Part shown: in pieces, positions 9,731 to 14,744 of the stretch
Position numbering within the stretch: the first letter of the stretch is position 1
Layout: each line of letters opens with the position of its first letter
Virus record (IMG/VR): IMGVR_UViG_3300029923_000015
Span: 1-64,000 of that record
DNA: 64,000 bases
Reading direction: 5' to 3' (one strand)
Source of the DNA: a virus
Made by a program: the position numbers and the translations under genes
The notes under the pieces: generated by a model
Seen by the model: only the letters and a program-made list of their open reading frames with translations
The model's database searches: none
What the model was told of the DNA's origin: nothing

Positions 9731-9865
9731 ATGATTAAAGACGCGTGCACTCTGAGTGCCAAAGAGATTAAATCAACTATACATGAAGAGTGGATGGTCT
9801 TCTACAAATATAGAGCAAAACAAGAATTAGATAATATAAAATATCTTACAGATGGTAAATGTTAA
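9731..9865 (+). CDS. very small hypothetical protein (44 aa)
   Basis: A 44-codon ORF with ATG three bases after the preceding stop, preceded by AAACA. It ends in TAA within the ATGGTAAATG that starts the next gene (overlap with 9852). It fills a gap in an otherwise continuous operon. The product is helical and charged (KEIKSTIHEEWMVFYKYRAK). Function unknown. Confidence 0.5.
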   Translation: MIKDACTLSAKEIKSTIHEEWMVFYKYRAKQELDNIKYLTDGKC

Positions 9866-10328
9866 AGTAAAGAATGCAAAGACCCACGAATATGATGGTC
9901 AGAAGTTTAAATCAGGTTTAGAGCTATTCTGTTACAAACTACTTAAAGAGAATCGTATTCCATTTATATATCAACCAGCATCATATGTATTGATACAAAA
10001 GTTTAAATCAAACTTTAGATGTTATGAGGATACTGGTAAGATTACTAGGGATAGCAATAAGAAAATACTATCGTCTACTAAACGTTTTGATCTAATTGAG
10101 AACGTAAGAGAGATAGCCTATACACCAGATTTCTGTGGAGTGGATAATGACTGGATAATAGAGACAAAAGGATTTGCTAACGATGCATTCCCATTGAGAT
10201 GGAAGTTATTTAAAGCAAAACTAAATGAAGAAGATTTCCAAGGAATATTAATGAAACCAGAAAGCCAGAAGGAGGTTATGCAATGCATAGATATAATTAA
10301 AGACCAAACAATAATTGAGTATGTCTAA
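9852..10328 (+). CDS. PD-(D/E)XK endonuclease (DUF1064-like)
   Basis: The core of a restriction-endonuclease fold is visible: Glu-24 in FKSGLELFCYKLL, Asp-93 in YTPDF, Glu-104/Lys-106 in WIIETKG and a following basic helix PLRWKLFKAKL. Spacing resembles DUF1064/T7-endonuclease-I-like phage nucleases that resolve branched DNA or trim intermediates before packaging. It is the second such nuclease within 1 kb, and the terminase lies shortly downstream, so a part in DNA maturation is a reasonable inference. Confidence 0.75.
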   Translation: MVNVKVKNAKTHEYDGQKFKSGLELFCYKLLKENRIPFIYQPASYVLIQKFKSNFRCYEDTGKITRDSNKKILSSTKRFDLIENVREIAYTPDFCGVDNDWIIETKGFANDAFPLRWKLFKAKLNEEDFQGILMKPESQKEVMQCIDIIKDQTIIEYV

Positions 10329-11315: not shown

Positions 11316-13860
11316 ATGATAGATTTTAATAAAAAAATAAAAAATAGCGAAAAATTTAGAGCGCCAGCAATTTTTTTCCAAAAACATGGACTATACTGTT
11401 TTTCCCCATATGGAACTACTGAGTATCTAACCTATTGGGATACTGAGGCCATTAGATGCGTAGAAGGATATACTGCCCCTGATGGGGATTGGATAAGTGG
11501 GTATAATTATTTTTACTTAAATTATTGTCCGATACTTAGATTAGTCGAATTTGAATATAAGGATAGGTTTGGTAACATGAAGATGCGCAGAGAAAAGGCT
11601 AGGAAATTTCCTGACTTTTATGATTATGACTACTATTACTTTATGGGCGTTCAGGAAGCGCAAGAGGAAGGTGCTCACATGGCAGTTTTAAAGGCTCGTG
11701 GTAAAGGTTTTTCGTTTAAAGGAGGATCGATGCTCGATAGAAATTATTATCTGATACCAGACTCTAAAGGCTATGCAATTGCATCTGAAACTGAATATTT
11801 AGTTAGAGATGGTCTACTTACGAAGGCCTGGGATTACATGGACTTCATAGATGAACATACTGCATGGGCGAAAAAACGTCAGGCTATTAATACAAAGATG
11901 CATAGAAAGGCTTCTATTATTACTACAGATGAAATGGGTAATAAAATAGAGGTTGGTTATAAGTCTGAGATAATTGGAGTATCATTAAAGAATGATCCCA
12001 ATAAGGCTCGTGGTAAACGTGGTCAACTAATCCTATGGGAAGAGGCAGGATCGTTCAAGGATATACTTCAGGCGTGGCAGATAGCTAGACCTTCTGTAGA
12101 AGAAGATGGTAAAGCTTATGGTCTAATGATAGCATTTGGGACTGGTGGTGATGAAGGTTCTAGATTTGATGGACTGAAAGAAATGTTTTATAATCCATCT
12201 GGATATAATATAAAATCGTTTCCAAACATATGGGATGAAGGGGCTGATGCAAATCAATGTGCTTTTTTTGTTCCTGTATACGCCAATATGTCTGTACTAG
12301 ATGAAAATGGACATAGAATGTTTATGGATAAGAATGGTAATAGTCTTAAGACTAAAGCTGTTGATTATGCCATGACCGAGCGCAAGAAAGTAGTTGACGG
12401 ATCCTCTGACTCAAGGGCTATTGATAGGTATATTGCAGAGAACCCTATAACTCCTCAGGAAGCTGTTTTAGAACTCACAGGGAACATATTCCCTAAGAAG
12501 GAATTAATGGTACAGTTGGCCTCAATACGTACAAATAAGAAGCTACAGGCATATAAGCAGGTCGGTGATTTGAATTATGTTAATGGAATATTGAGTTGGG
12601 AAATAAAACAAAAAGGAGATATAACTAAATACCCATTAGGTAGAGACGATAAGCATGAAGGATCAATAGTAATATGGGAACACCCATCACAAGACACATC
12701 AGGGCAATTATACATAGCGGGGTGTTTATTACCAGGAGAGCAAGTAATTACTGACTATGGATTAAAAAACGTAGAAGATGTATCATTTGAAGATAAATTG
12801 ATAAATGAAGATGGATTGGAAAAGAGTATCGTAAATCTACAAAGATATGAAAAAGTAGATGAACCTATATTTAAAGTAAAACCAAATGGATCTTTTAGGA
12901 CTACGACGTTTACTCAAGAGCATCCTATATTATTAGATTCTGGATTCAAAAAAGCATCTGAATTAAAGAAAGGAGATGTACTTAAAATACCAAATAGATA
13001 TATAGATAGTAATAATAATTATATAGATATTATATCTAAATATTTTACAGAGGATTTTAATTACAATGATCCATTATTTTGGTGGTTTCTAGGTATATGG
13101 ATAGGAGATGGTTTTAATAATAAGAATAGTCAATCTCATGATATATATGTTGCATTTGGAATCAAACAAATTGAAGAAGCAAATTTTTATAAAAACGTAG
13201 TTTATTCATTGTTCCATAGAAAAACATTAGTTTGTGTTAAAAATGGTGGAAATACTACTAGGTTTACTTATAAAATATTATATGATTTCTTAGAGAATGA
13301 ATTTGGTAGATATTCATATGGAAAAAGAATTCCAGAATGGGTTAAATATGCACCAGAAGAATTAAAAAAATATTTTATATCTGGATATTTAGATTCAGAT
13401 GGATCTGCATATTTTGATAAAGGAAAATTAAGAGTATCATTTACTAGTATAAATTTAACATTACTAGAGTCTATCCAAGATATTTTATATTCAATGAAAA
13501 TTAGAAATAGTATAGTCAGACACTCAAAAGAAGGTATATCTATATTTAATAATAAAGAATATAAACACAAAGAATCATATAAGGTATCAATTCCAACATC
13601 AGAAATAAAAAAAATATTGCCACTAGATCTTAGTATACTAAATAGCAGAAAAATTAATGAAATAGAGAAATACTCATCGTCTTTACCCAGAAACACCGTA
13701 GAGAAAGCAGTAGTCTACTTCGTGAACAAATACATATTCCTTAAAATAGAGAATATAGCAGAATCAAAATACACTGGTACTGTTTATAACTTTGAATGTG
13801 ATACACACACATATATGTGTAGGAATATCGTCACACACAATTGTGACCCGTTGACAAACT
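11316..13860 (+). CDS. terL: large terminase subunit, 5' exon with in-frame intein
   Basis: This exon encodes the ATPase half of the packaging motor: Walker A-like KARGKGFS (residues 126-133) and Walker B LILWEE (238-243). At residue 470 the host protein stops at YIAG and an intein begins; the protein resumes at CDPLTN, the first metal-binding Asp of the RNase H-like nuclease. The frame then meets TAG, with the T at 13860. Joining 13860 to 14092 removes a group I intron and reads CDPLTN-YDHDKAGTNSLG. Mature terminase would be 692 residues, normal for crAss-like phages. I chose ATG 11316; an in-frame TTG at 11298 is less likely. Confidence 0.9.
12723..13841 (+). mobile_element. LAGLIDADG intein in terminase
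   Basis: The 373-residue insert begins with Cys (CLLPGEQVITDYG), has the block B signature TQEHPIL and ends VTHN before an extein Cys, the four features needed for protein splicing. Between the splicing halves lie two LAGLIDADG helices, LGIWIGDG (intein residues 123-130) and ISGYLDSDG (219-227), so it probably also encodes an active homing endonuclease. It sits directly before the conserved CDP of the terminase nuclease, a conserved site of the kind inteins favour. Splicing should release a seamless terminase. Confidence 0.92.
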
Positions 13861-14091
13861 AGCGGTGCGATGTATGTCGTAAGAATTGAGCAAAATCGGT
13901 GAAAGTCTCTAGTAGAAAACACCGAGGTAAATAATTAGATTTCGAAAGGCTAATTATCACCGTAACGCGTAGCAGATGAATAAATATAATTCTGCCAAGA
14001 GTGCTCGACAAGAATCAAACTTGATAATGTACGCTGAGCTATATGGCGACATATAGAAGTAAGGATAAAAAGCCTTGCGATAACAAAACTG
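13861..14091 (+). ncRNA. ORF-less group I intron in terminase
   Basis: The standard group I helices can be drawn in order: P3 TTGAGC (13886) with GCTCGA (14003); P4 CGGTG (13897) with CACCG (13920); P6 GGT..ATAATTAG (13926-13938) with CTAATTAT.ACC (13950-13961); P7 GCGTA (13967) with TACGC (14030); P7.1 GCAGA/TCTGC (13972-13995); P8 CAAG/CTTG (14009-14023); P9 CTATAT/ATATAG (14039-14056); P9.1 AAGG/CCTT (14061-14076). P7.1 points to subgroup IA. The 5' exon ends in U and the intron in G, as the mechanism requires. Excision restores the terminase frame. P1 (ACU with GGU, 13858-13866) is short, so the exact 5' site is the least certain point. Confidence 0.85.
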
Positions 14092-14744
14092 ATGATCACG
14101 ATAAAGCTGGGACCAACTCATTAGGTGCTACATTTATATATAAACGTATGCAAAACTTTGAATCATATTATGATATCCTAGTTGCCGAGTATACTGGTAG
14201 ACCTGATACGGCAGAAGATTATTATGAGAATGTACGTAAATTATTACTATATTATAATGCTAGATTGCTTTATGAAAATGAACGTAAAGGTATATTTCCA
14301 TACTTCACACAAAAGCATTGTGATTATTTGCTAGCGGATCAACCTGATATTATAAATGATATTATAGGCAAGTCTACAGTACAAAGACGAAAAGGCATCC
14401 ATATGAATACCCAAATAAAGGATTATGGGGAAGGTCTTATTAAGGAGTATCTTAATGAGGAATTTGCTCCCGGTAAAAAATGTCTTACTACTATTCTGTC
14501 AGAACCTTTACTAGAAGAGTTAATACAATATAATGATAAAGGTAATTTTGACCGAGTAATAGCACTTATTATGGTCATGATATATAGGCAGCAACTACAC
14601 AATATGCATGTGAAGAAAAAGAATATAGAAGTAAGAAAAAATATACTCTTTAATAAACCATTATTCGGCAAAGAGTGGTGGGATTCAAATGATAGCGGCC
14701 TAGAAGAAATAACAAAAAATTCAATAGATATAAATTGGAATTAA
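14092..14744 (+). CDS. terL: large terminase subunit, 3' exon
   Basis: This is the remainder of the nuclease domain, beginning YDHDKAGTNSLGATFIYKRM after splicing. The motif around SLGATFIY is the strand that follows the first catalytic Asp in crAss-type terminases. The rest is helical and basic and ends 1 nt before the portal ATG. An ATG at 14043 in the same frame lies within the intron and would add a non-homologous lead peptide, so I regard it as not used. Without splicing the nuclease would be separated from the ATPase by in-frame stops. Confidence 0.88.

Follow-up and report, generated by a model that had tools for sequence, protein, structure and literature searches.

We find that the large terminase subunit gene (terL) of a crAss-like virus fragment is interrupted by two self-splicing elements, an intein and an ORF-less group I-type intron, which lie 10 nt apart, and that across related terL alleles the two occur together far more often than expected by chance. 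The reading we favor, to which we assign a probability of roughly 0.6, is that the intron often hitchhikes on the homing endonuclease of the intein, the pair forming a loose partnership of two selfish elements with adjacent homing sites. A more ambitious version, in which one intein-borne endonuclease moves the intein and the neighboring intron into the same conserved codons repeatedly across crAss-like phages, as a composite mobile unit across chemistries, strikes us as somewhat short of an even bet. The DNA analyzed, referred to here as the window, is the whole stretch of 64,000 nucleotides taken from a viral record of 78,731 bases (78.7 kb); terL and the parts of both elements described below lie on its plus strand.

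An intein and an intron at the terminase nuclease site

The gene is placed in the crAss-like family by both of its exons. The 5' exon, which is also the N-extein (11316-12722, 469 aa ending in LYIAG), matches the terminase large subunit family phrog_6681 with E=1.8e-82, and the 3' exon (14092-14744), which carries the rest of the C-extein as AT followed by DHDKAG and continues to the stop codon, matches the same family with E=6.7e-54. The best named relative is cr118_1 (Crassvirales, Suoliviridae), at 63% over the N-terminal exon, and the start Met at 11316 is the same Met in relatives. From this start the frame is open, enters the intein at 12723-13841 and hits a stop at 13860-13862; terL coding resumes at 14092, and in empty alleles this 3' sequence is contiguous with exon 1. 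The ORF that a mechanical call places at 14043-14744 uses an ATG within the intron and extends into the terL 3' exon; it owes its existence to the intron and is not a gene in its own right.

The intein (373 aa) spans exactly 12723-13841, from C1 to H372 and N373 followed by Cys, with the end that a sequence-only reading of this DNA had given it. Pfam (LAGLIDADG_3, E=1.6e-8 for the endonuclease domain, and Intein_splicing), alignment, an AlphaFold2 model and fold matches in the PDB all describe Hint ends that enclose a LAGLIDADG endonuclease domain. C1, H372 and N373 are invariant among 20-21 aligned inteins, and the +1 residue here is Cys. In the aligned set, G124, G128, D129 and G130 of the first LAGLIDADG motif (LGIWIGDG, 13089-13112) and G221, L223, D224, D226 and G227 of the second (GYLDSDG, 13383-13403) are also invariant, which keeps the acidic residues of both motifs (IGDG, LDSDG) throughout. 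The model (pLDDT 91.3) has a Hint fold whose best PDB matches are the HEN-bearing inteins TliVMA, PI-SceI and PI-PfuI, and its endonuclease part also matches I-DmoI. Intein-less orthologues run contiguous across the insertion site, reading CDPY. Three close pairs of inteins give dN/dS values of 0.04, 0.07 and 0.08. Among relatives in the window's own clade, three pairs give 0.09-0.16; for the window's own intein against two of those clade relatives the ratio is about 0.4. Judged by sequence and model, the intein looks intact.

The boundaries of the intron follow from alleles that lack both elements. Empty relatives (e.g. L008, L010) have exactly 12 nt, TGT GAC CCN TAT, between the terL codons that border the insertion in the window; because these 12 nt encode C-D-P-Y, the exon must read TGT GAC CCG T/AT GAT CAC, with the slash marking the junction, and the intron is 13852-14091 (240 nt). 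The sequence-only reading had started the intron at 13861, nine bases too far downstream, a position ruled out by the empty alleles and by the P1 guide; the 5' splice site follows T13851. Its spacing of seven codons shrinks with this correction to 10 nt, or three codons and one base: the exon piece between intein and intron, TGT GAC CCG T (13842-13851), encodes Cys, Asp, Pro and the first base of Tyr, where empty alleles read C-D-P-Y.

The structure of the intron was examined across 21 homologues at this site. Its P1 guide GCGG (13862-13865) pairs with exon CCGT (13848-13851), and both are constant across introns, whereas the intervening loop differs from one intron to the next in length as well as in sequence. 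Two divergent intron-only alleles, L341 (4437-4667) and L353 (4435-4660), pair exon CCCT with guide GGGG, and in L353 the insertion point has moved by one base; in either form (CCGU/GCGG or CCCU/GGGG) P1 ends in a U.G pair. The core common to the homologues comprises P3, P4, P5, P6, P7, P7.1, P8 and P9, helix names that we give by analogy with group I introns. The 5' strand of P3 (13886-13891, partner 14003-14008) is 100% paired, with two-sided changes at two pairs, and that of P7 (GCGTA, 13967-13971, partner 14030-14034), which is pseudoknotted with P3, is 100% paired with a change from G-C to A-U in 6 of the 21 introns. Overall, 99.5% of structure cells pair, two-sided changes occur in 27 of 51 pairs, none of 500 shuffles is as good as the observed structure, and pairing falls to 26-46% when the partners are shifted by 1-3 columns. 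The intron ends in a 3' terminal G at 14091 with an exon junction that agrees with the empty alleles, and it is the single profile match in the window. No 60-codon ORF is complete within it; the downstream frame begins there and continues into the exon. By covariation it appears to be a compact, intact-looking group I-type intron. Rfam group I models gave no match to it up to E=10, a negative that is uninformative because the terL intron of Lactobacillus phage JCL1032, where terL is annotated as a joined CDS, likewise has no Rfam group I match. The sequence-only reading had considered that either element might be a defunct remnant, and this is not what we see: dN/dS of the intein is 0.04-0.16 in pairs from two clades, and the intron is held together by covariation.

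Relatives of the intron are present in terL of JCL1032 (L082, 2478-2695) and of Staphylococcus phage VB-SauS-SA2 (L083, 2990-3204). These belong to the same intron sequence family (72-76% identity by blastn), but they sit in other TerL families and at other positions, and no intein of the present family was found in either phage. The same intron family also occurs in L084 and L093-L125, apparently in other genes of unrelated viral contigs.

Where do the two elements fall in the protein? The intein enters immediately before Cys470 of TerL and the intron is inserted inside the codon of Tyr473. A PDB sequence search with TerL gave no match; a fold search with the TerL model, whose confidence is moderate (pLDDT 62), returned T4 gp17 as the top structural match. 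In this model strand 464-471, the first strand of the nuclease, terminates in the conserved Asp471 (codon GAC, 13845-13847), and two strands and a helix follow as in the terminase nuclease fold. Its position in the predicted fold suggests that Asp471 is the first catalytic Asp. The elements thus sit at adjacent sites where the terminase nuclease is highly conserved. The earlier proposal that two unrelated self-splicing elements flank CDPLTN, with the first catalytic Asp, survives for the conserved Asp codon in a T4 gp17-like predicted fold; its LTN is intron sequence and falls in the variable P1 loop.

Co-occurrence of the two elements across terL alleles

We classified 155 distinct terL flanks collected by TerL, intein and intron scans together with public phage records. 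The sequence-only reading had called for such a survey, and all four allele classes turn up: 113 alleles are empty, 21 carry the intein only, 6 the intron only and 15 both. Among loci found by TerL queries alone the corresponding numbers are 113, 10, 4 and 10. An early impression that the intron occurs exclusively beside the intein was overturned by the intron-only alleles, found by a DNA pattern scan and in the census. Each element also occurs alone, and each can be separately gained or lost.

The same census bears on what the elements do for the phage, if anything. The sequence-only reading had raised a delay or gate on DNA packaging, in which RNA splicing and then protein splicing would time the activation of TerL. 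The elements do break up the coding sequence around the nuclease Asp, so that a complete TerL would depend on both kinds of splicing, and the idea of a 'molecular on-switch' has been voiced for introns of phage terminase genes (PMC11878797). We nonetheless found no support for a two-step gate and regard it as highly improbable: presence is patchy, with most alleles empty, and the sister phage cr124_1, whose flanks are nearly identical to those of cr7_1, has neither element, so neither is needed; in addition, infection by phage SIOphi showed only spliced terminase transcripts (PMC11878797).

Intein and intron co-occur strongly (Fisher p=4e-7 for the full set, p=3e-7 for the TerL-query loci). 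These Fisher tests ignore relatedness, which the tree-based tests account for. On the TerL tree the 15 alleles with both elements require 15 changes, and dependent evolution of the two elements is favored over independent evolution with LR 38.3 (p=1e-7). In independent tree pairs, the intron changes with the intein in about 9 cases versus 0.1-0.2 in the opposite direction (median p=0.004). Adding joint gain and loss steps to a four-state model gives p=0.20 for the full set and p=0.08 for the TerL-query loci, with rates at their bounds. The improvement is not significant, so the tree by itself does not require joint gain.

Could two elements that merely like the same place produce this pattern? 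Intein and intron might be independent invaders of one permissive hot spot, sharing receptive codons and phage lineages, with the intron arriving by reverse splicing or through an endonuclease that acts in trans or has escaped recognition. Alleles with the intein alone and alleles with the intron alone fit such a history, as do related introns in other genes without this intein, and the intein-only alleles lack GACCCGT, the sequence paired by the common intron guide. Against it, the association persists when the site is held constant. Among Cys+1 sites it remains at p=3e-5, and it is strongest at fully permissive sites: those reading TGYGACCCGT comprise 15 alleles with both elements, 0 intein-only, 4 intron-only and 19 empty (p=5e-7), meaning that the intron is present in 15/15 alleles with the intein versus 4/23 without. 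Taken with the intron swaps described below, this leads us to consider independent invasion unlikely.

The sequence-only reading had suggested that the two elements may home to the same conserved site and might even be mobilized as a unit, with independent distributions at distinct targets as the contrary outcome. What we find lies between these. There are two target sites, 10 bp apart, and not one; the distributions over these distinct targets are nevertheless dependent. Co-occurrence and signs of joint replacement fit mobilization by the intein endonuclease, and the 21 intein-only and 6 intron-only alleles argue against a strict unit.

Possible traces of joint movement

Hitchhiking would work as follows. 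The intron would leave the mRNA (CCGU/UGACA...AACUG/AUGAUC), joining the C-D-P-Y codons, and the intein would then excise from the protein (IAG/C...HN/C), giving normal TerL. In an empty allele, the intein endonuclease would cut the DNA, and repair from a doubly occupied donor would bring in the intron too. The 10 bp of homology between the two elements can hardly keep them apart, and co-copying of the intron would be expected nearly always. We infer splicing, cleavage and co-homing here from sequence.

Drawing on the content of the record, we consider hitchhiking the best explanation because the intron is ORF-less and the LAGLIDADG domain of the intein is the sole recognised homing endonuclease present. 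Searches of the record for HNH, HNH_3 and GIY-YIG found none, and LAGLIDADG_3 was found once. Genes related to known free-standing homing endonucleases were seen close to terL in 1/15 loci with both elements, 2/6 intron-only loci and 17/113 empty loci; with none in the record and a single case among the loci with both elements, we set aside a free-standing HNH or GIY-YIG helper. Other candidates for the intron's helper would be an unrecognised nuclease or, as a guess, the product of an upstream ORF at 9852-10328. This ORF has weak similarity to DUF1064 (E=1.7e-4, below that family's cut-off), and a nuclease role for it is a guess. The introns of intron-only alleles still look intact, which makes a role of the intein as maturase for the intron unlikely.

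In 208 of 210 pairs the intron has diverged less than the terL flanks. The two exceptions, L138/L271 and L149/L086, each join two almost identical terL alleles of which one has the intein and the other lacks it. For L149/L086 the flanks are 95.9% identical and the introns 95.2%, and SNPs are concentrated within 80 bp of the site (17/160 versus 37/1278, p=3e-5), a cluster that resembles what co-conversion would leave. For L138/L271 the flanks are 98.8% identical and the introns 92.0%. Here the flanks show no difference between -130 and +255, the introns are 8% apart and the intein is in one allele. Simple co-conversion of flanking sequence does not account for this combination. The introns have been swapped in both of these recent intein-plus/intein-minus pairs, which speaks against independent invaders.

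In a third pair, L143/L140, synonymous differences are 0.77 in terL and 0.40 in the intein, and the intron is 97.8% identical, suggesting that intein and intron were shared more recently than terL, as for joint transfer. The flanks of the public genomes cr7_1 (both elements) and cr124_1 (empty) are about 98-99% identical, with 22 differences across 2,000 bp on the upstream side and 33 across 1,500 bp on the downstream side; the two elements are present together in one genome and absent together from the other. A difference of this kind is explained equally well by joint loss, in which co-inherited elements were removed together by recombination with an empty allele and their linkage reflects no more than the 10-bp spacing; gain and loss are inseparable on the tree. 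Joint loss sits poorly with the recent sharing in L143/L140, and the intron replacement that accompanies intein presence in L149/L086 is no plain loss, so we think it improbable, more so than independent invasion, as a general account.

Over the whole set, intron and intein distances agree beyond what terL predicts (partial r=0.41, p=0.001), and they do so within the cr7_1 clade (partial r=0.44, p=0.008). The window's own clade of 5 alleles has no such agreement (partial r=-0.55), as independent invasion would have it. Between the window and L003 the intein is 58% identical (aa), the intron 92% (nt) and the terL flanks 81% (nt); with inteins this divergent and introns closer, the history of the window's intein differs from that of its intron. 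We do not claim that the intron moved alone between cr7_1 and cr131_1 (intron 96%, terL flank 76%), because introns evolve far slower than synonymous sites.

Relation to known systems

In collaborative homing, an endonuclease encoded outside an ORF-less group I intron mobilizes it, and the helper is a free-standing gene. In the terL case, by contrast, the helper we propose is part of an intein in the very gene that hosts the intron. The term itself is used in PMC3984707, among others. Coincidence of the two kinds of element has a precedent in Bacillus phage SPbeta, whose nrdE (bnrdE) has a group I intron and an intein ('Lightning strikes twice: intron-intein coincidence', cited in PMC3653736; also PMC8270828), in a gene different from terL. 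In Haloferax, a study that asked whether the neighboring inteins MCM-a and MCM-d co-home found that they interfere and that co-homing is inefficient; HEN-less neighbors would depend on co-homing, a case named for further research (PMC10643990). The likeness to terL is that two homing elements lie close together in one conserved gene. Both Haloferax elements, however, are inteins with their own endonucleases, whereas in terL the intein has as its neighbor, at 10 bp, an RNA intron with no ORF, and the distributions are dependent.

For the crAss-like phages, an intein has been described as a typical feature of TerL in the Delta group (Yutin et al. 2021, PMC7886860), and the inteins of the public Delta-group members cr118_1, cr7_1 and cr131_1 are 47-52% identical to the window's. 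An intron beside the terL intein is not described in the passages of PMC7886860 that we consulted. To that account we add the 10-bp spacing of the pair, its repeated occurrence, the four allele classes and signs that the two elements are linked. In cr7_1 (L059, NC_055895.1, 3654-4486) and cr131_1 (L060, NC_055902.1, 6500-7342) the annotated TerL ends at the intron start and the C-terminal nuclease exon is unannotated in the records, a truncation that should serve as a warning for annotators.

The system addresses two questions: how introns that lack an endonuclease spread, and whether neighboring homing elements help or hinder each other. With four allele states, near-identical backgrounds differing in one element or in both, and public relatives at hand (cr7_1, cr131_1, cr118_1 and cr124_1), it offers a natural test system for both.
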